A stretch of DNA of 64,000 nucleotides from Marinovum sp. (lineage in GTDB: Bacteria; Pseudomonadota; Alphaproteobacteria; Rhodobacterales; Rhodobacteraceae). Numbering within the stretch: position 1 is the first letter of the stretch; each line of letters starts with the position of its first letter. Of the stretch, positions 46,722 to 62,331 are shown piece after piece. The position numbers and the translations under genes are program-made. Location of the stretch: assembly GCA_022447495.1 (NCBI GenBank), contig JAKVBH010000011.1, positions 70,991 to 134,990 on the forward strand, read 5' to 3'. The notes beneath the pieces were generated by a model, which was not told the origin of the DNA, made no database searches, and was given only the letters and a program-made list of their open reading frames with translations.

Positions 46722-47321
46722 ATGGAAATCGATTTGCGGGGCGTTCGGATCGTCAAAGGCGCGCTTGATCCTGTTGCTCAGGTGGACATGGTCGACACAA
46801 TCCGCGCGATCGCGCAAGCTGCGCCCTTTTATCAGCCTGTCACGCCCGGCGGACGGCAAATGTCCGTACGGATGACGGCGGCGGGTCAGTTTGGTTGGGT
46901 CACTGATGCCAAGGGTTACCGTTATCAAGCGTGTCACCCTGACGGTATGGCATGGCCTGCGATCCCCGATCCGATCCTTGCGTTGTGGGAGAAGTATTGC
47001 CCCAATGCGCGGAGCCCGGAATGTTGTTTGATCAATTACTATGGCGAGGGCGCACGGATGGGTTTGCACCAGGACCGCGACGAGGCCGATTTCATTCAGC
47101 CGGTTTTGTCCCTGTCTCTTGGGGATGAGGGCATGTTCCGTGTGGGCAATGTGGTGCGTGGCGGCAAAACGGAGAGTCATTGGTTGCAATCAGGTGATGT
47201 CGCGGTATTGGGTGGCGATGCGCGGTTGGTACATCACGGTGTGGATCGCATCCGATTTGGCAGTTCGTCGCTGTTGCCCAAAAGCGGGCGGATTAACCTC
47301 ACCTTGCGCGTTGTGACCTGA
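46722..47321 (+). CDS. alkB: AlkB-like Fe(II)/2-oxoglutarate-dependent DNA repair dioxygenase
   Basis: A 199-residue enzyme that oxidatively demethylates 1-methyladenine and 3-methylcytosine in single-stranded DNA. The iron site is His116 and Asp118 in ARMGLHQDRDEAD plus the distal His in ARLVHHGVDRI; the 2-oxoglutarate-binding Arg pair is in RINLTLR. The substrate lid shows GYRYQACHPDGMAWPAIP. ATG 46722 has GGGAGG at suitable spacing; a longer start is not supported. It complements the methyltransferase at 23786-24625 in alkylation repair. After its stop comes a GC-rich repeat rather than rodA. Confidence 0.95.
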   Translation: MEIDLRGVRIVKGALDPVAQVDMVDTIRAIAQAAPFYQPVTPGGRQMSVRMTAAGQFGWVTDAKGYRYQACHPDGMAWPAIPDPILALWEKYCPNARSPECCLINYYGEGARMGLHQDRDEADFIQPVLSLSLGDEGMFRVGNVVRGGKTESHWLQSGDVAVLGGDARLVHHGVDRIRFGSSSLLPKSGRINLTLRVVT

Positions 47322-47325
47322 TGGA

Positions 47326-47440
47326 GCGTGCCTGCGGCCCGCGCTATATAAGCACGCGCTTGCGCATGCAGAATCAGGGGCTCCGCCCAGTCGCCCAAGG
47401 GCGACCCCCCCCCCGGGGTATTTTGAGCAAGAGGAAAGGG
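47326..47440. repeat. GC-rich intergenic repeat, copy 2
   Basis: GTGCCTGCGGCCCGCGCTATA, then GCACGCGCTTGCGCATGC, a GGGGCTCCGCCC element, a GTCGCCC/GGGCGAC hairpin, a run of ten C, and GGGGTATTTTGAGCAAGAGG ending in AAAG. The same order of parts occurs at 61082-61172. It fills the space between the convergent alkB and mrdA stops. Confidence 0.7.
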
Positions 47441-50902: not shown

Positions 50903-52171
<1,269 letters not shown>

Positions 52172-52279
52172 TCAACTCCCAGGGATTTTTACGACCAGAA
52201 GAAACCAATGGGCCGTTAAAATTCTTGCCGTGGGTTCTTTGGCACGCTCATATAGTTGGAGCCGCTTGGAGGATATGCT

Positions 52280-53254
52280 TTGGCCCATGGCGAATGGAAC
52301 CATACGCCGGATGTGCTGCCTTTAGAGGTGAATCCGCTCTTTTCCTGGCCACCCCGGCCGAGAGCCATAGTGGGGTGGTATTGGGCGTCTTGGTTCCCGA
52401 TCTCAATCAACCTTGGAATTGTCGCGTTGGCCTTTGGTGCGCTTGCATTTGCAGCGCCGAGTTTAAATCAGGCGGCGGTCATTGGGCCTTGGGTTGGACT
52501 AATTTTACTGCGGAACTTTTTGCTCATCGCGTTTTTGGCAGGTGGGTTGCATTGGGTCTTTCATCGCGAGGCCTTGCAAGGACGCGATCACAAGTATGAT
52601 CCCCGGCCCTTTCCGAGACGTGGGCGAAGTTTCACCTTTGAAGATCAAGTACTCGACAATGCATTTTGGACCTTGGCCTCAGGCGTGCCGATTTGGACCG
52701 CGTTTGAAATGTTGATTTGGTGGTCCATGGCGAACGGGATTGCACCGGTATGGACGTGGTCAGATGGCGCGGTGTGGTTTGTCGCGGTGTTCTTTCTCAT
52801 CCCAATTTGGGAGAGTTTCTATTTCTATTGGATTCACCGCGCGCTCCATTCGCGGCTGCTCTATCGGTTCCACGCGCTGCATCACCGCAACACCGATGTC
52901 GGGCCGTGGTCGGGGCTGTCGATGCATCCGTTTGAGCATCTGATGTACTTTGGCACGGCGCTAATTCACTTTGTGGTGCCGACCCATCCCGTGCACCTGA
53001 TCTGTCACCTGATGTTCTATGCGCTGTATGCGGTCACGACCCATACCGGGTTCGAAGGGGTTTGGTCCAATGGGCGCAAGCGGCTGCACTTGGGGAATTT
53101 TCATCACCAGATGCACCACCGCTATTTCGAGGTGAATTACGGGACACTAGAGGTGCCCTGGGACAAGTTTTTTGGCACGTTCCACGACGGGACGGCCCAA
53201 GGCAAAGCCGCGATGCGCGCGCGGTTGAAAGTCCGGGCGAGACTGCGCCAATGA
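52280..53254 (+). CDS. Sterol desaturase/fatty acid hydroxylase family protein
   Basis: A 324-residue membrane diiron enzyme of the fatty-acid hydroxylase superfamily. Histidine clusters are HRALHSR, HALHHRN and HHQMHHRYFE, with hydrophobic segments at about residues 35-60, 75-95 and 150-195. Bacterial members hydroxylate or desaturate lipids or carotenoids; the substrate cannot be told. I propose the TTG start at 52280 because GGAGGA lies six bases upstream; a TTG at 52256 has no such site. It converges with the lipase-like gene, with their stops directly adjacent. Confidence 0.82.
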   Translation: MAHGEWNHTPDVLPLEVNPLFSWPPRPRAIVGWYWASWFPISINLGIVALAFGALAFAAPSLNQAAVIGPWVGLILLRNFLLIAFLAGGLHWVFHREALQGRDHKYDPRPFPRRGRSFTFEDQVLDNAFWTLASGVPIWTAFEMLIWWSMANGIAPVWTWSDGAVWFVAVFFLIPIWESFYFYWIHRALHSRLLYRFHALHHRNTDVGPWSGLSMHPFEHLMYFGTALIHFVVPTHPVHLICHLMFYALYAVTTHTGFEGVWSNGRKRLHLGNFHHQMHHRYFEVNYGTLEVPWDKFFGTFHDGTAQGKAAMRARLKVRARLRQ

Positions 53255-53908
53255 TCAGGTGCGTTTGGGTGGCCAATGCATGGGCACGCGGTCGGCGACT
53301 TTCTTGGTTTTCAGTATGTCACGGTAGTTGCTGATGTGGTGGTCTTCGCCAACGTTGACCTCTTCGGGGGCCAGCCAGTAGCGGCTCCCAACGGTGCGGA
53401 ACCCCAAAAGTTTAGGCGGCACGTGGCACACGGTGTCATCGACACGGCATAAGTTCACGACCCATCCCTCGTCCGGCAGGCGGTTCGTGGTTTTGCCCTT
53501 GAGCGTTTGGGGTGAGGCGAAGGCGATCGTGGGCGTTGCCATGGAAACTCCGACGATCTGGGCGGAGGCTGCGCCGAGGCTGTGACCCACAACGAACTTG
53601 GGCTTCAACGCTTTGGCAAACGCGTACACGATCTGCGCATGTTCTAGGAAACCTGCATGCCATTTCGTACCGCTGTCGCCGGCGACCACTTCAAAACCAT
53701 GACCTTCAGTCGGCTCGCCTGACATATTGAGGTTGAAGTCGAACCAGTCGCTGAACTCATTGGTGCCTGGAATCACCAGCACGCCAGATTTGAGATAGCG
53801 GGCCTGAACACCGCGAATGTCGATTTGGTGCGATACGCTGGATTTGTCTTTATCTTCAACAGCGGCCTCAATCATGTCGCAGGCGTCGAGCGCGGAAATC
53901 TGGTCCAT
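53255..53908 (-). CDS. Lipase-like alpha/beta hydrolase
   Basis: A 217-residue protein with the class-3 lipase pattern: the nucleophile elbow VVGHSLGAASAQIVG with Ser110, preceded by VLVIPGTNEFSDWFDFNLN and GTKWHAGFLEHAQIVYAFA, then the acid in VNLCRVDDTVCHVPP and the late His in GEDHHISNY. No signal peptide is visible, so it is probably cytoplasmic. Relatives are often annotated as lipase family; the natural ester is unknown. It stands alone between the hydroxylase and acyl-CoA synthetase genes. Confidence 0.8.
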   Translation of the reverse strand: MDQISALDACDMIEAAVEDKDKSSVSHQIDIRGVQARYLKSGVLVIPGTNEFSDWFDFNLNMSGEPTEGHGFEVVAGDSGTKWHAGFLEHAQIVYAFAKALKPKFVVGHSLGAASAQIVGVSMATPTIAFASPQTLKGKTTNRLPDEGWVVNLCRVDDTVCHVPPKLLGFRTVGSRYWLAPEEVNVGEDHHISNYRDILKTKKVADRVPMHWPPKRT

Positions 53909-53985
53909 CTTAATCCCTTTCTAGAAATAGGTTCCTGCACGTTAGCCTTTTGGCGCAAGGGAGGTCTACTGTGCAGAATGCGGGA

Positions 53986-55596
53986 TCACAGCGGGAGCGC
54001 CCGCAGATCACGGCGGATGATCTTGCCCGTTGTGGTGAGCGGCATGGCGTCGAGAAAGCGCACGATGCGCGGGGCTTCATAGGCCGCTAGGCGCGCGCGG
54101 ACGTGGTCGCTAAGCTCTTTGGCAAGGGGATCAGAGGGCGCAAACCCGCCCTGGAGTGTGACAAAAGCGGCGACGACCTCTCCGCGCACGTCATCAGGCA
54201 CGCCAACAACGCCCGCCATGGCCACCGCGGGATGCGTCAAAAGGCAATCTTCGATCTCAGCCGGGCCAATCCGATAGCCTGCGGAAGAGATGACATCGTC
54301 GTCGCGCCCCTTGAAGGCGATGCGCCCGGTCTGTGTGCGCCACCCCCGATCACCGGTGATGAGCCAACGGGTGCCATCTGGTGCCGTTCGAAACTTTTCG
54401 CCTGTGGCGTCGGGTCGGTTCCAATAGCGTAGGAACATCACCGGATCCGGCGCGGCGACCGCGATATCACCTTCTTCTTTGGCAAGTTCAGTGCCTATCT
54501 CGTCCAAGATAGCGAGCCTGTGACCAGGCACGGGCCACCCCATGATACCCGGTTCAGCAGGGCCAAACGCGCCACAGGACGAGACGATCATGTTGCATTC
54601 GGTCTGGCCATAGAACTCGTTGATCGTCACACCAAAAGCCGCACGCCCCCAGTCGAGCAACTCTGCCCCGAGCGTTTCGCCACCAGACGCGACGGATCGC
54701 ATGGCCACGTGTCGCCCCTCTGCCTGGCGCATCATCTTGAGCGCAGTGGGTGGCAAAAACGCGTTTTGAATGCCGTGGCGGTCGATGAAGTCGAACGCAG
54801 TCTCACCGTCAAACTTGGCAAAGCGGTGCGCGACCACGGTCACCCCATGATAAAGTCCCGGCAGGAGCACATCCAAAAGACCCCCGATCCAAGCCCAATC
54901 CGCAGGCGTCCAAAGCTTGTCACCGGGTTGAGGAAGGAAATCGTGGCTCATCTCTACACCCGGCAAATGCCCCAACAATACACGATGCGCGTGGAGTGCG
55001 CCTTTGGGGGCACCCGTTGTACCAGACGTATAAATGAGAAGCGCCGGATCCTCGGCATCGGTATCCAATGGTGTAAACTGCGGCGCGGCATCGATCATGC
55101 GGGCCAAGTCACGTTCTGGCTCCGTCTCTCCCCAGACCAGAATGTGTTTCAGGTCTGGCAACTCCCCATGCAACGCTTCCAGACGCGCCGCACCCTCAGG
55201 GTCGGTGAGGACAATCTCGGCCCCGCTATCGCGCAAACGGTGCATCAACGCTTTTGGCCCGAATTGCACAAACAACGGAAGAGCGATGCCACCCATCTTA
55301 TAAGTCGCAATGTGGCCCAGCGCTGTTTCAATCCGTTGCGGCAAAAGCACCGCGATCCGTGCGCCGGGTTTCACAAACCCCGCCAAAACAGCGGCCAAAC
55401 GATCCGATTGCGCACTCAGAGAGGTAAATGTGACTGCTTTAACGTGGCCATCGGCATCGATCTCTTCGATAGCAACCTGATCAGCGCGTGTTGCAGATAG
55501 GCGATCTGAGACGGCCACACCCATGTTGAACCGGGGCGGAACATCCCATTTAAATGACTGATAAGTCTCATTATATGTGGCGCGACGATGCAGCAT
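53986..55596 (-). CDS. AMP-dependent acyl-CoA synthetase
   Basis: A 536-residue adenylate-forming enzyme that makes acyl-CoA from a carboxylic acid, ATP and CoA. The phosphate loop is LLIYTSGTTGAPKGALHAHR, the A5 motif NEFYGQTECNMI, the A7 motif WLITGDRGWRT, the hinge FKGRDDDVISSAGYRIGP and the catalytic Lys in TTGKIIRRDLRALP. It resembles acetyl- or medium-chain acyl-CoA synthetases; the chain length is not clear. Starts of this gene and the J-domain gene are divergent. Confidence 0.92.
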   Translation of the reverse strand: MLHRRATYNETYQSFKWDVPPRFNMGVAVSDRLSATRADQVAIEEIDADGHVKAVTFTSLSAQSDRLAAVLAGFVKPGARIAVLLPQRIETALGHIATYKMGGIALPLFVQFGPKALMHRLRDSGAEIVLTDPEGAARLEALHGELPDLKHILVWGETEPERDLARMIDAAPQFTPLDTDAEDPALLIYTSGTTGAPKGALHAHRVLLGHLPGVEMSHDFLPQPGDKLWTPADWAWIGGLLDVLLPGLYHGVTVVAHRFAKFDGETAFDFIDRHGIQNAFLPPTALKMMRQAEGRHVAMRSVASGGETLGAELLDWGRAAFGVTINEFYGQTECNMIVSSCGAFGPAEPGIMGWPVPGHRLAILDEIGTELAKEEGDIAVAAPDPVMFLRYWNRPDATGEKFRTAPDGTRWLITGDRGWRTQTGRIAFKGRDDDVISSAGYRIGPAEIEDCLLTHPAVAMAGVVGVPDDVRGEVVAAFVTLQGGFAPSDPLAKELSDHVRARLAAYEAPRIVRFLDAMPLTTTGKIIRRDLRALPL

Positions 55597-55759
55597 TGGA
55601 ACAAAGGCTCGCCCATGCGCCGCCGATGGTCAAGAAGAGGCCGCACTGTCATTAACCTTCTGGCAAGGAAAAAGTGGCGCGCGAACTGGGGCAAACTTAT
55701 GGTGGATAAATAGACGACGCGCATATGACCCGCGCAATTTAGAGAGAGCAAAACCAGGC

Positions 55760-56305
55760 ATGGAGCCAACACGCGCATATGACATCTTAGGGGTCACCCC
55801 TATGGCGGATCTCGAAACGATCCGAGACGTCTGGCGCGCGCTGGCCCGAGCGCATCACCCCGATGTCGTGGGGGGATGCCCAGACGCAGCCTCCCGGAGG
55901 TTCTCCGAGATCAACGAAGCTTACGATATTCTGCGGTCCCACCTCACACGCACATCCGTCGAGCGGGATGACCTGGACATGTCCCTGCGCGCCAAATACG
56001 CGGCGCGTCGGGATGTGGCCCGGCGTCGGGCCATGGCGGAACAAAAACGCCGGATGGACGCAGCCCGTCGCACCGAAGCAGAGTTCCAAGCCGAAGCATC
56101 AGCGCATGAGCGGACCAATGCCACCCAAGAGAACGGCTCACACAAGGCCAAACCCAAGTCGAACCCGCGTGCCACCACCCAGCCTGAGACAACAGTTATG
56201 AAACGTCCGACCATGTCGGCGGAAGGCATCGCAGCTTTGCGCGGGTACCTTGAGGCACGTAAAACGCGCGATCTGCCACGGTCGTATGTCGACCTGGCGA
56301 CCTAA
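55760..56305 (+). CDS. J-domain protein
   Basis: A 181-residue protein with an N-terminal J domain (residues about 5-70): RAYDILGVTPMADLETIRDV, with the HPD motif in ARAHHPDVVGG and SEINEAYDILRSHL. The rest is a basic, charged, helical stretch rich in Arg, Ala and Glu, ending KTRDLPRSYVDLAT. It lacks Gly/Phe and zinc domains, so it is a type III co-chaperone that would direct DnaK to a particular task. A GAGAGAGCAAAACCAGGC leader gives the ribosome binding site; the ATG at 55760 is at the domain boundary. Confidence 0.88.
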   Translation: MEPTRAYDILGVTPMADLETIRDVWRALARAHHPDVVGGCPDAASRRFSEINEAYDILRSHLTRTSVERDDLDMSLRAKYAARRDVARRRAMAEQKRRMDAARRTEAEFQAEASAHERTNATQENGSHKAKPKSNPRATTQPETTVMKRPTMSAEGIAALRGYLEARKTRDLPRSYVDLAT

Positions 56306-56563
56306 ACCAAGACCCACCCAAAATCACAATCCAAACCCACAGCCCTTTCGCACAGGTCGTCTAAAGAAATGACTTGAGCGTTTCGGTGCCATTCGCCTCT
56401 TTTGCCTCAACCAGGCACCAATCCCGGCCGATTTTTATCCTTTGTTTACCAAATTGGACATTGCCTCAATTGCCCCGAGCCTTTGCCGCAATTTCGGCAC
56501 GGTTTTTATGTAATCTTGTATCAACTCGAGGTTGGGAAGCCCAAGTTTGTTAAGGGTAAGCGC

Positions 56564-57388
56564 ATGTCATTTCGCACCTATTCTTTGTTGGCCATTGGCC
56601 TAAGTGGGATGCTCTATTTCACCCAAGGCATCGAGCCACGGCTCGGCGACAATGAAACAACTGCATATGTGAAAGAGGAGGTCGCCTCGCTGCGCGATCG
56701 GCTCAACAGCGACTTCACGACCCTCCAAGATCTGCAATCAGGTTCGGCATCTAACAATCCGCTGTCGCCTTGGCATGCCTATCTGCCACACCCTCAGGAT
56801 GGCTGGGTCAACTTGAGCGACACGCGAGACGTGGCATCCATTTTGCGAGGCGGCGCGATCTCCCGCGAGGTGCTTGTGGATGCGCGCGCATCGGCAAAGC
56901 TCCGTGGTGATCAAACCACTGGCGTGTATCTCAAAGATGGCGCGCTGGTAAAAATTGAAATCGCGCCGATGCGCATGTCCAGCCACAACACAAGCGCGCA
57001 TTTGGTTGTGCTGCGCAAAGCGTTCTCAAGCGCACCTGACAAGCAAGAGATCTTTGCCCGCATCCGTGGCGTGACCTTTCACGTCACCGCCCGGGACGCG
57101 GATCAATACGTGGTCGAAACCGAATTGGGCGACCACGTGCGCATCACCCTAACCGGGCGTGGCGATGCCGAAGCCGCGCGTCAACTTTTGTCCGGTGTGA
57201 ATTTCAAAGGCTTGTTCCGTCACATCGAAGAAGACACGGGCCAAAAGATGGACAAGTTCCTGCCCAAGCTGCCACAGACCGGCGGCAAGTCGCGGTCTAG
57301 CAAAAGTTCAGGCCCCCAGATGGTCAAAGTCGTGCCGCGCTCCTCCTCTAGTGGTGTGATCATCAACCGAGGCTTGGCTAACAAGTAG
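56564..57388 (+). CDS. Membrane-anchored protein of unknown function
   Basis: A 274-residue protein I do not recognise. It starts SFRTYSLLAIGLSGMLYFTQ, a membrane anchor or uncleaved signal, followed by a charged helical region with NETTAYVKEEVASLRDRLNS, then a globular mixed part (GVYLKDGALVKIEIAPM, VVLRKAFSSAPDKQEIFARI, FHVTARDADQYVVETELGD) and a basic Ser/Lys-rich tail (about residues 235-265). AAGGG lies before ATG 56564; the upstream frame to 56402 has no membrane start. It lies alone between the J-domain gene and the GcvT oxidoreductase. Periplasmic localisation is likely. Confidence 0.6.
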   Translation: MSFRTYSLLAIGLSGMLYFTQGIEPRLGDNETTAYVKEEVASLRDRLNSDFTTLQDLQSGSASNNPLSPWHAYLPHPQDGWVNLSDTRDVASILRGGAISREVLVDARASAKLRGDQTTGVYLKDGALVKIEIAPMRMSSHNTSAHLVVLRKAFSSAPDKQEIFARIRGVTFHVTARDADQYVVETELGDHVRITLTGRGDAEAARQLLSGVNFKGLFRHIEEDTGQKMDKFLPKLPQTGGKSRSSKSSGPQMVKVVPRSSSSGVIINRGLANK

Positions 57389-57534
57389 CCGCCCCGGCGA
57401 CCATCATTAGACCCCGCATCGTCACGCCAATCCCCCCCGTGTCGCTTTCGCCCGGGATTTGGTCGGGCACATTTGGCGCATCCGCTCCGCCCGGGCGTAA
57501 GACCGGAACATCCTAAGACGAGGGGAGTCGCGCA

Positions 57535-60051
57535 ATGGACGGCCAAATCAAATCCCATCTGAAAGCTCTTGTGGTGGGCGGCGGTGCCGTGGGCACGTCG
57601 ATTGCCTATCATTTGGCCCGCGCCGGATGGCAGGATGTGATGCTGCTGGAACGCGATGAGCTCACCTCGGGCTCGACCTGGCATGCCGCCGGCCTCTTAC
57701 CGTATTTCAACATGTCCTACGCCACGACCCACATCCACGACTACTCCATCAAGTTCTATAAGACGCTTGAGGAAGAGACCGGGTTGAATGCGGGTTTCTC
57801 GATCGTGGGCAACCTGCGCATGGCGCAGACCAAAGCGCGCATGGACGAGTACATGCTCTATGCCTCCACCGCCGAGACATGTGGCGTGCCCTTTGAGTGG
57901 ATGACACCCGCGCAAATCAAGGAACGGTGGCCACTGGTGCGCACCGAAGACCTCGAAGGCGCCATCTATCACCCGACCGACGGCTACATTAACCCCGCCG
58001 ATGTGACCATGGCGATGGCCAAGGGTGCGCGGCAACGCGGCGTGATCATCGAGCGCAAATGGCAGGTCGATGGCTATGAGTGGACCGGGTCGGACTGGCG
58101 CGTGACACTGACCAAGATGCTCGACAAAGGTGGCAACTTGGTCTCCACCGATGAGCAGGTTGTGGTCACCGCCGAGCATGTCGTGACCGCCACAGGCAAC
58201 CACGCCCAGCGCACCGCCAAGCTTCTTGGCATCAAGAGCGCCGCGATCCCGGTGGAACATCAATTCATCGTCACAGAACCCGATCCCGCGCTGGTCGAGT
58301 ACCGCAAGACCAATGGCGAACACCCCGTCCTGCGCGACGCCGATGCCAAATGGTACGTGCGCGAAGAACGCGGCGGCTGGATCCTTGGACCATACGAACG
58401 CAACGCGCCCGCGCGCTTTGAATATGGCGTGCCGGATAGCTTCCGCGCCGATCTCTTCCCTCTGGATCTGGAGCGGATCGAAGAGGAATACATGTCCATG
58501 ATCCACCGGATTCCATCGTCGGAGACGGTCGGTCTCAAGGACGATTACAACGGTCCAATCTGTTACACGCCCGACGGCAACCCTCTCATCGGTCCAGCAC
58601 CGGGGCTGCGCAATATGTGGCTGGCGGAGGGCTTCTCCTTTGGCATCACCGCTGCCGGGGGCGCGGGCTATTACCTGGCACAGATGATGGTCGAAGGTGA
58701 GGCGGAGATCGACATGGCCTCGCTCGATCCCAAGCGCTACGGCGATTGGATGACGACGGAGTTCGCGGCGCGCAAGAACGAAGAATGCTACGAGCACGTC
58801 TACATCCTCCACCACGCCGATGAAGAGCGTGAAGCCTGTCGCCCGCTGCGCACAGCGCCCGCCTATGACCGGCAAAAGGCCGAAGGCGCCCAGTTTGGTT
58901 GGGTGAACGGATGGGAACGGCCAAACTACTATGGCCCCAAGGATGCGCCAGCGACCTTTGACCATGACGCGCGCTCCTTCCGCCGCGGCGGATGGTGGCA
59001 ATACGCCCATGACGAGGCCAAAGCCGTCCGTGAAGGCGTGGGGCTCATTGATGCCACCGCTTTCACCAAACACCGCGTCTACGGTCCCGGCGCGACGGCG
59101 TTCCTCGATGGGTTCACCTGCAACAAAATGCCCAAGGTGGGGCGTATCAACCTCACCTATGCGCTGACCGAGGCCGGCACGACGCGCACCGAATACACAA
59201 TCGTCCGCGAGGGTGAGAGCGATTACTATCTGGTTTCCGCCGGGGCTTGGACGGCCTATGATGCGGATTACCTCACCAAAGCAGCTGAGGATTTCATGGC
59301 CGCCACGGGCCAGATGGTCATCATCCAAGACGTGACCACCCAATGGGGTGTCTTTGCGATCGCCGGGCCCAAATCCCGCGATGTGCTCAAAGAGCTGATC
59401 TGTGACGCGGAACAAGAAACAGCCCTGTCAAACAAGCGTTTCCCTTGGCTCTCCAAGCGCGACATCGAGCTTAAGATGTGCCCCGTGAAAGCGATCCGCG
59501 TGGCCTACACCGGCGAGCTTGGCTGGGAATTGCACCACCCGATGGAAATGCAGAATTACCTCTGGGATCAACTCATGGAAGCAGGTGCCAAACACGGCAT
59601 GAAACTTGTGGGTGCGCGTGCGCAAAACTGGCTCCGCCAAGAGAAAAGCTACCGCGCCTTTGGCACCGAATTGGGCCGCGACGCGACCCCGCTTGAGGCC
59701 GATCTTCCACGCTTTGTCGACCTTTCCAAAGAGTTCACAGGCAAAGCGAAGATGGAAGAAACCGGTGTACGCGTGAAGTGCTGTACTCTGCTCATTGATG
59801 GCCCGGAGGACGCCGATCCCTGGGGCCGCGAAGCGCTCTATTCCGCAGAGGGCACCCGCGTGGGTCGCTTGACCTCGGGCGGCTATTCGGTGGCCTTCGG
59901 CAAATCCATCGGCATGGGCTATGTCACGCCTGAGTTGGCCGTGCCGGGCACGAAGCTTCAGGTCAAAATGCAAAACAAGCTCTGGGATGCCGAAGTCACC
60001 GTCGACAGCCCCTATGATCCGAAAAACGAGACCATCCGCAAAGACGGCTGA
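57535..60051 (+). CDS. Dimethylglycine/sarcosine dehydrogenase-like protein (FAD oxidase fused to GcvT)
   Basis: An 838-residue two-part enzyme. Residues about 8-400 are an FAD-dependent amine oxidoreductase: VVGGGAVGTSIAYHLARAGW binds ADP, and SGSTWHAAGLLPYFN has the His that carries covalent flavin in dimethylglycine and sarcosine dehydrogenases. A middle domain and the C-terminal aminomethyltransferase (GcvT) domain (about 460-825, AVREGVGLIDATAFTKHRV, then IAGPKSRDVLKELICDAEQE and the GYVTPELAVPGTKLQVKM barrel) pass the one-carbon unit to tetrahydrofolate. It likely oxidises a methylated amine such as dimethylglycine or sarcosine from glycine betaine breakdown. It is followed by a hairpin and by a flavodoxin. 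Confidence 0.92.
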   Translation: MDGQIKSHLKALVVGGGAVGTSIAYHLARAGWQDVMLLERDELTSGSTWHAAGLLPYFNMSYATTHIHDYSIKFYKTLEEETGLNAGFSIVGNLRMAQTKARMDEYMLYASTAETCGVPFEWMTPAQIKERWPLVRTEDLEGAIYHPTDGYINPADVTMAMAKGARQRGVIIERKWQVDGYEWTGSDWRVTLTKMLDKGGNLVSTDEQVVVTAEHVVTATGNHAQRTAKLLGIKSAAIPVEHQFIVTEPDPALVEYRKTNGEHPVLRDADAKWYVREERGGWILGPYERNAPARFEYGVPDSFRADLFPLDLERIEEEYMSMIHRIPSSETVGLKDDYNGPICYTPDGNPLIGPAPGLRNMWLAEGFSFGITAAGGAGYYLAQMMVEGEAEIDMASLDPKRYGDWMTTEFAARKNEECYEHVYILHHADEEREACRPLRTAPAYDRQKAEGAQFGWVNGWERPNYYGPKDAPATFDHDARSFRRGGWWQYAHDEAKAVREGVGLIDATAFTKHRVYGPGATAFLDGFTCNKMPKVGRINLTYALTEAGTTRTEYTIVREGESDYYLVSAGAWTAYDADYLTKAAEDFMAATGQMVIIQDVTTQWGVFAIAGPKSRDVLKELICDAEQETALSNKRFPWLSKRDIELKMCPVKAIRVAYTGELGWELHHPMEMQNYLWDQLMEAGAKHGMKLVGARAQNWLRQEKSYRAFGTELGRDATPLEADLPRFVDLSKEFTGKAKMEETGVRVKCCTLLIDGPEDADPWGREALYSAEGTRVGRLTSGGYSVAFGKSIGMGYVTPELAVPGTKLQVKMQNKLWDAEVTVDSPYDPKNETIRKDG

Positions 60052-60077
60052 TCAGCCGCGTGATGTGATCCAGCGGG

Positions 60078-60094
60078 GCGGGCCTACGGCCCGC
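60078..60094 (+). terminator. Hairpin after the GcvT-fused oxidoreductase
   Basis: GCGGGCC and GGCCCGC form a perfect seven-pair stem around TAC, 26 bases after the stop. No T-tract follows, so it is a weak terminator or part of a repeat. Confidence 0.4.
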
Positions 60095-60241
60095 TCTCGA
60101 TCAGCGCGCGCAGAGCACGCACAAGATGGAATGCTCTGTCCCTCGTTGTCCTTTATCCTCATTTTAGTGGTGCAAAACTGACTGAACACTGGGCTATCGC
60201 GGGCAAGAGAACACCTTGGGCGGATCGATGATGTCTAGGCG

Positions 60242-60290
60242 CATGCGATCAAAGGTCTTAAGTGCAATTGAGCGTTGCACTTAGCGCATG
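60242..60290. other. Nested inverted repeats upstream of flavodoxin
   Basis: Inner arms TAAGTGCAA (60259-60267) and TTGCACTTA (60275-60283) flank TTGAGCG; outer arms CATGCG (60242-60247) and CGCATG (60285-60290) enclose them asymmetrically. The site lies 95 bases before the flavodoxin ATG and could be an operator or a folded leader. Confidence 0.5.
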
Positions 60291-60384
60291 AGGCTTTATT
60301 TCTTAGGTGTCCTCGCCATGCGCTTTCTGGATCCAGCCACCGGAAACCCACAGCCAAGACTCTTGGTTTTTGACGCGAGGCTCC

Positions 60385-60831
60385 ATGCACATTCAATTTC
60401 TCTTTGGAACGGAAACCGGCACAGCGGAAATCGTCTGCGAAGATTTGCAAGCGGCGCTCGGCACTGATCACACAAGCGCCATTGCAAGCCTTGAAGATGT
60501 AACACCCGATAATTTGGATAAAAGTCACCTTCATGTGGTCGTCTGTTCGACCTTTGGTTCAGGTGATCTTCCAACAACGGCCGAGGTGTTCTTTGATCAA
60601 ATCAAAGGCGGTGCCAAAGATTTAACCGGGGTGCAATTTGCAATATTTGGCTTGGGGGACCGCACCTTTGGTGACACGTTCAATCAAGGGTCCGAACGCC
60701 TTGCCGAGGCATTGGTTGAATGCAAAGCCACACAAGTGGGCGCACGGGGTATCGCGGATGCGTCCGCAGGCGACTTGCCGGAGGACATCGCAATTCCATG
60801 GCTCAAGGGTATTCTCAACGCGCAAGACTAA
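60385..60831 (+). CDS. Flavodoxin domain protein (MioC/CysJ-like)
   Basis: A 148-residue flavodoxin fold. The FMN phosphate loop is FGTETGTAEIV; the second loop is VVCSTFGSGDLPTTAE, and the third AIFGLGDRTFGDTFNQGSER. The spacing is like MioC and the flavodoxin domain of sulfite reductase CysJ. ATG 60385 has GAGG upstream and starts at HIQFLFGTET. It has no reductase attached. It lies between a flavoenzyme and the remnant of a second copy of it, and may serve as its electron acceptor, though nothing shows this directly. Confidence 0.88.
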   Translation: MHIQFLFGTETGTAEIVCEDLQAALGTDHTSAIASLEDVTPDNLDKSHLHVVVCSTFGSGDLPTTAEVFFDQIKGGAKDLTGVQFAIFGLGDRTFGDTFNQGSERLAEALVECKATQVGARGIADASAGDLPEDIAIPWLKGILNAQD

Positions 60832-60837
60832 AATCGA

Positions 60838-61080
60838 AGCGTGACTGGCCGCGATGCCGGCCCACTTGAGGCCGACCTCCCCCGCTCATCAACCAGCCCG
60901 AAGGTAATCGCATCGCTCAATTGACCTCGGGTAGTTATTCGGTGGCCTTCGGCAAAGCGATTAGCCGGGGCTACGTCACGACAAAATTGGCCGTCTCGGG
61001 CGACAAGCTCAGGTCAAAATGCAAAATAGACACGGGAATGGCAAAGCGACCGTCCAAAAAGACGGCAGTGATCCAGCAGT
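60838..61080 (+). pseudogene. 3' remnant of a second GcvT-family oxidoreductase gene
   Basis: The segment matches the 3' end of the gene at 57535-60051. Its first part reads GRDAGPLEADLPR (gene: GRDATPLEADLPR at about 59677). After a deletion of roughly 190 bases it reads LTSGSYSVAFGKAISRGYVT (gene: LTSGGYSVAFGKSIGMGYVT). A one-base loss (AAGCTCAGG for AAGCTTCAGG near 61009) then shifts the frame before VKMQN. The following GTGATCCAGC and GC-rich hairpin also match the downstream region of the intact gene. It cannot code for a working protein. Confidence 0.85.
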
Positions 61081-61081
61081 A

Positions 61082-61172
61082 CGGGCCTGCGGCCTGCTCT
61101 CTATGCGCACGCGCAAGCGCGTGCGGGATGAGGGGCTCTGCCCCTCATCCCGGGGTATTTCAAGCAAGCGGA
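61082..61172. repeat. GC-rich intergenic repeat, copy 3
   Basis: GGGCCTGCGGCCTGC, then a perfect GCACGCGC/GCGCGTGC hairpin (61107-61124), a perfect 12-pair hairpin GGGATGAGGGGC/GCCCCTCATCCC (61125-61151), and GGGGTATTTCAAGCAAGCGG ending in AAA. It mirrors the copy at 47326-47440 and ends just before the stop of the Hint-domain gene, for which the hairpins can act as terminator. Confidence 0.75.
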
Positions 61173-61174
61173 AA

Positions 61175-62227
61175 TCAGGCAGTCATTGTGGCCCAGATGG
61201 CCTTGGCCCGGCGATCCTCGATGATCGGGCGCGCGGCTTGTTTTGCCGCTTGGTATTGTTTCATCTCAGGGAATAACGCGAGGATTTCGGCTCGTGTCTT
61301 TGCCTCGTGGTCTGCGGAACCGCCGAGAAAGAATGACTCAGACAGCAAGCCGTCGGCCTCGATGACTTCGTGTGCGTCAAATAAAACGTGGACGTAGTGC
61401 ACCTGTGTGGCGTGGCAATCAACGAGGACTGAGTGGTCGTTGACAAGCTTAATCGCGGGCACCAGCACCTCATCTTCACCAAACAACAATTCAGCACGCC
61501 ATCCCGAGATCGCAATACGGTGCTGGGGAGAGACCCGTGTATCGCGGACGGGCCTGCCCGGCCCCAAAGCGCTCGCTTTGATCAAGACTGGACGCACGTT
61601 TGGGTGGCAAGCCATGTCAGGCGCATACAAGACCGTCGCGCCAACCCAGCGCACAGGTTTGGCCGTGCCATCTGCCGTACAAACCAAATCGCCAGGACGA
61701 AGCCCCTCAACAGGAACAGATCCGTCAACCGTTTTAACCAATGAGCCTGCAGTGAAGCACAGCGGTGTGGCGAGGCTTTCATTGGTGTAGCTTGGCCCTT
61801 CGCCCGTGCGCACCACACGCAAAGCTTCTCCGATGGGTGGAAATCCACCTTGCGGACCAACAAAAGCAAGACCTTCAACCGTGCGAAAGGATGCGACACC
61901 CGGTTCGTTGATATTAAAGGCCAGCAACGTGTAGCGCACGCCATTGCTGTCCTCGACTTCAATGTCGAATTCGGCTTCGACACGCAGGTTGTCAGCGTAG
62001 GACACGCCGTCATAGGCTTGGGCCCCTTCGAGACGTTGAGATCCGTCATTATCAGAGAAATTTGCGTCGTCATCCTCGATCAGGACTTCGCGCCAGGCGT
62101 TGGAATTGAGCGTGATGAAGAGCCCGTCGAGGTGGCTGCCATCCCCTTGGGAAATGCCGGACAGCTGCTCACCGCCTGAGACGGTAACCTGAGATTCTTC
62201 AAGGGTGTAGATCGTTGTTACCGGCAT
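61175..62227 (-). CDS. Hint-domain (hedgehog/intein-type) protein
   Basis: A 350-residue protein. Residues 1-150 form a Ca-binding-repeat-like or beta-rich region with many Asp and Glu (EDDDANFSDNDGSQRLEG). A Hint domain follows (about 155-300), starting with Cys157 in PLCFTAGSLVKTVDGSVPVE, with GLRPGDLVCTADG, then RVSPQHRIAISGWRAELLFG, the block with the second catalytic His. Such secreted Hint proteins of Rhodobacterales are common and may self-process; they often lack a signal peptide, as here. ATG 62227 is chosen because upstream codons do not resemble the family. It ends at a GC-rich repeat. Confidence 0.87.
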   Translation of the reverse strand: MPVTTIYTLEESQVTVSGGEQLSGISQGDGSHLDGLFITLNSNAWREVLIEDDDANFSDNDGSQRLEGAQAYDGVSYADNLRVEAEFDIEVEDSNGVRYTLLAFNINEPGVASFRTVEGLAFVGPQGGFPPIGEALRVVRTGEGPSYTNESLATPLCFTAGSLVKTVDGSVPVEGLRPGDLVCTADGTAKPVRWVGATVLYAPDMACHPNVRPVLIKASALGPGRPVRDTRVSPQHRIAISGWRAELLFGEDEVLVPAIKLVNDHSVLVDCHATQVHYVHVLFDAHEVIEADGLLSESFFLGGSADHEAKTRAEILALFPEMKQYQAAKQAARPIIEDRRAKAIWATMTA

Positions 62228-62331
62228 GGCATTCGTCTGCCATGCCAATGCGGTTGGATTGTGGCAGCATCGTGAACAAACGCGACGATATAGGTGCTTT
62301 TGTTCTAGGGCGCCGCCACCCAATTCACACG

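Follow-up and report, generated by a model that had tools for sequence, protein, structure and literature searches.

The window, that is, the whole stretch of 64,000 nucleotides of Marinovum sp. DNA that was analysed, carries an intact dimethylglycine-dehydrogenase-like gene (57535–60051, forward strand, 838 aa), followed on the same strand by a GC-rich element (60065–60144), a gene for a short-chain flavodoxin (60385–60831), a 220-base relic corresponding to the 3′ end of the dehydrogenase-like gene (60847–61066) and another copy of the element (61067–61160). By its sequence the product of the intact gene is dimethylglycine dehydrogenase (DMGDH)-like, and dimethylglycine is its predicted substrate. 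DAO (FAD), FAO_M, GCV_T and GCV_T_C domains lie in one chain, each above its Pfam cut-off, and the best solved relatives are dimethylglycine dehydrogenases, the match to 4pab extending over query residues 6–837 (E = 1.2e–158). The four-domain architecture and the full-length match to a solved enzyme are those of the DMGDH family, represented by the rat and human enzymes (PDB 4pab, 5l46) and by SPO3400 of the Roseobacter clade; Ruegeria pomeroyi is reported to have a DMG dehydrogenase with a folate-binding domain in its glycine-betaine pathway (PMC4744692). Roseobacters have many DMGDH-like paralogs at 33–40% identity, and the source genome holds six further full-length DMGDH-like genes with 33–38% amino acid identity to the intact gene. 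One DMGDH-like paralog (L004, G000:C13:56753–59107) gives a match interrupted by a single in-frame TAA and may be a further copy in decay; next to it lies a relative of the Hint-like protein that the window encodes at 61175–62323.

Within the roseobacter family the gene is widespread and single. With a C-terminal query (E ≤ 1e–42) it was found in 358 of 397 genera, with one match per genome in all but one of the matches listed; the exception, G183, has two matches to the C-terminal part and just one full-length copy. The mreB gene lies upstream of it in 25 of 80 relatives and also in the window (50903–52144, the only full-length mreB match in the genome), which places the intact copy at the ancestral site, while the downstream neighbourhood varies between genera. 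In many relatives mreB and the DMGDH gene are neighbours; in the window about 5.4 kb (52145–57534) lie between them, containing a desaturase-like, a hydrolase-like, an acyl-CoA synthetase, a DnaJ-domain and an unknown gene, as named from reading of the open reading frames.

The flavodoxin gene

The 148-residue product of 60385–60831 (forward strand) contains a Flavodoxin_1 domain (PF00258, 69.2 bits against a cut-off of 25), and the best relatives of known structure are cindoxin and MioC, short-chain flavodoxins of the MioC/cindoxin type (PDB 2hna, 4oxx). It differs from these proteins in falling below the NCBIfam MioC cut-off (88.5 versus 158 bits) and in having no neighbouring reductase or P450 partner in the window. 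The gene has a GC content of 52% and a GC3 of 51%, as compared with a GC3 of 60–74% in ten further window genes. Such base composition looks foreign, and the gene was probably acquired horizontally. Standalone relatives are patchy, occurring in about 20 of the 397 genera at no more than 53% identity, and the phages and plasmids searched gave distant relatives only, all of them below 60% identity. Among the standalone flavodoxins of other genera (L084–L102) two kinds of neighbourhood were noticed, one with a BoxB-like benzoyl-CoA oxygenase gene (BoxB by sequence reading) and a regulator, the other with a ferredoxin-reductase-like gene.

Structure and parentage of the relic

Between the flavodoxin stop codon and the relic lie 15 bases. 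Repeat finding and alignment resolve it into four blocks, all on the forward strand and collinear with the intact gene. The first (60847–60886), which reads GRDAGPLEADLPR, matches 59674–59713 at 80%; the second (about 60894–61008), which reads QPEGNRIAQLTSGSYSVAFGKAISRGYVTTKLAVSGDK, matches about 59842–59956 and is preceded by a deletion of about 121 bases. One further base is missing before the third block (61009–61054, matching 59958–60003), which shifts the frame, and the fourth (61055–61066, matching 60037–60048), with the C-terminal KDG codons, follows a loss of 33 bases between the imperfect 6-base repeats ACCGTC/ACCATC. At the 3′ end about 15 bases are gone, including the stop codon. 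Truncation, three deletions, the frameshift and the missing stop codon together destroy the reading frame. The first-pass annotation had described this fragment behind the flavodoxin as carrying one internal deletion and a one-base frameshift; the fragment itself and the frameshift are borne out, the single deletion is replaced by three (about 121, 33 and about 15 bases). Over 213 aligned bases the relic is 75.1% identical to the intact gene, and the blast score of this match (105 bits) excludes chance, since the best of 500 dinucleotide-preserving shuffles reached just 28.3 bits. An assembly artefact, in which the 3′ ends of two strains were chimerically joined, would have to be considered for a draft of 90 contigs that is 77.9% complete and may be metagenome-derived. 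We regard it as very improbable: the locus is embedded in a contig of 213 kb, downstream of mreB, and decay by several separate events, as in the relic, would not be seen in the working gene of a second strain.

The relic could in principle come from another GcvT-domain gene, six further full-length DMGDH-like genes being present in the genome, and the alignment that would tell was proposed along with the original claim. The answer is clear. None of the six paralogs has a significant DNA match to the relic (best 24.7 bits, against 105 for the intact copy), and the protein of block 2 is 67% identical to the intact copy and 36% to the best-scoring paralog. In a tree of 71 sequences and 213 columns the relic and the intact copy are sisters (support 100/99), and likewise (100/98) in a tree of 147 sequences built on the central 161 columns, the comparison involving 145 orthologs. 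An origin from another gene of this kind is thus ruled out for practical purposes, with a chance that we put close to nil, and the annotated identity of the relic as a copy of the DMGDH-like gene stands. Searched against the 397 genomes of the family, the relic again has its best match in the intact copy, the next one (80.6 bits) being an ortholog in another genus. The sister placement assigns the second copy to this lineage, or else to one more closely related to it than are any of the genera sampled. We therefore take the relic to be a real, decayed second copy of the DMGDH-type gene, judged as such from its sequence.

The two copies have fared very differently. The branch of the intact copy has a length of about zero, while that of the relic is 0.44–0.47; against the majority of the orthologs, 41 sites are changed in the relic only and 4 in the intact copy only. 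Of the 33 near-invariant residues in the 70 codons compared, the intact gene retains all and the relic 26. The second copy has changed much faster than the first.

The GC-rich element

Both copies are followed by similar GC-rich DNA (60065–60144 versus 61068–61146, 75% over 80 bases). The element behind the intact gene (60065–60144) includes the hairpin CGGGCCTACGGCCCG and is one of several copies in the genome; that behind the relic (61067–61160) forms the strong 12-pair hairpin GGGATGAGGGGCTCTGCCCCTCATCCC (fold z = –2.8) and is a possible terminator for the flavodoxin transcript. Behind a gene ending at 47321 there is a third copy (47323–47437); with 79% identity over 62 bases it resembles the relic's element about as closely as does the one behind the intact gene. 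Weaker copies are found on other contigs (L214, L218). The element is intergenic and lies behind genes, with the motifs CGGGCC..GGCCCG, GGGGCTCTGCCCC and CCCGGGGTATTT; GGGGCTCTGCCCC was counted 9 times genome-wide, the reversed control 0 times. A related motif follows the gene in just 4 of 166 ortholog loci. It had been argued that the relic carries the same downstream element as the intact copy, as a further sign of duplication. The similarity is real, but because the element is dispersed in the genome it was rejected as an independent marker of duplication.

History of the second copy

The relic resembles the decayed tandem paralogs, or gene-duplicate pseudogenes, of bacteria: it is adjacent to the intact copy, on the same strand and sister to it, and is truncated, frameshifted and shortened by deletions, one of which falls between short repeats. 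It differs from them in that the place of its 5′ part is taken by an unrelated flavodoxin. A second copy of a normally single-copy gene has decayed here, in what is probably an ordinary case of duplication and loss, with integration as the main rival.

According to the history that we consider probable, the second copy arose beside the first after the genus had split from the sampled genera, probably through a tandem duplication that placed it behind the ancestral copy linked to mreB. It would then have diverged partly under purifying selection before losing its function. Its 5′ 85% would have been lost, and the place is now held by the probably acquired flavodoxin gene, whose insertion may have caused the truncation or accompanied it; in the same scheme the 3′ end decayed through small deletions and the frameshift. 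The decay of a second copy, as already claimed from the first reading, agrees with its 100/99 sister placement, while the tandem duplication of a complete gene is less secure. Neither a 5′ remnant of the second copy nor a copy of the upstream region is present between 60052 and 60400, so that the second copy may or may not once have been complete.

The absence of any 5′ trace, as well as the start of the relic so soon (15 bases) after the flavodoxin stop codon, would also be expected if the 3′ end alone had been duplicated, by template switching or illegitimate recombination, and had never been part of a second working gene. The pattern of changes argues against this. Differences at third positions (26 of 53) exceed what random decay would give (P = 0.005), a test that assumes all changes to have fallen on the relic and gives weaker evidence for a functional period if half of them are assigned to the intact copy. 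In addition, the relic retains 47 of 70 residues, where 38 would be expected under random decay. The third-position excess and the surplus of retained residues suggest that the second copy was under constraint for a period before it decayed, and duplication of the 3′ end alone appears improbable to us. With half of the changes placed on the intact copy, dN/dS between relic and intact gene is 0.29 (95% interval 0.16–0.56); the value expected for decay from birth is about 0.57, a figure that we derived from an ortholog ratio of 0.15.

It is more difficult to reconcile the history of duplication and loss with the amount of synonymous change. The dS between relic and intact copy is 0.72 (95% interval 0.40–1.20), comparable to that towards some other genera (lowest 0.47). 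This value, together with the zero-length branch of the intact copy, agrees poorly with a simple duplication so old, and a foreign source may be involved. Such a source is offered by single-crossover integration, in which a circle or segment from a close relative, carrying the 3′ end of the gene and the flavodoxin, entered the 3′ end of the native gene by homologous recombination. The outcome would be a full gene with native 5′ and donor 3′ parts and, behind it, the flavodoxin and the native 3′ end that had been pushed aside and later decayed into the relic. The observed order of full gene, element, foreign-looking flavodoxin, 3′ fragment and element is exactly the product expected; integration also accounts for a duplication limited to the 3′ part and for the inside position of the flavodoxin, and the dS of 0.72 agrees with a period of separate evolution in a related species. 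However, the similarity of the intact gene to its relatives does not shift at the 3′ end (best identity 0.82–0.83 in the last two intervals compared, 0.79–0.89 elsewhere), and a chimeric intact gene was rejected on this ground. Moreover, there is no integrase or other mobility gene between the copies, and the donor would have to be nearer than any sampled genus. Integration is an unlikely, if serious, competitor to duplication and loss.

For duplication followed by loss, the place of the flavodoxin needs comment. It had been supposed that this gene first lay between two working copies, and that relatives with two full copies around it might be found. Neither a second full copy nor a flavodoxin beside the DMGDH-type gene occurs among the sampled relatives (397 genera, and 80 loci with flanks of up to 10 kb), and the supposition has lost its ground. 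That the flavodoxin was inserted where the 5′ part of the second copy has been lost would be the simplest reading and seems the more likely one, since no relative has the arrangement, the base composition looks foreign and the gene ends 15 bases before the relic.

As a caution for similar cases, a GC-rich intergenic element common to two roseobacter loci is by itself no evidence of duplication. The relic is a small evolutionary scar, from which no wider consequence is expected. Since nearly all genera of the family that were sampled have the gene only once, the gain and subsequent loss of a second copy in a single lineage of these marine bacteria suggests that a higher dosage was not retained.
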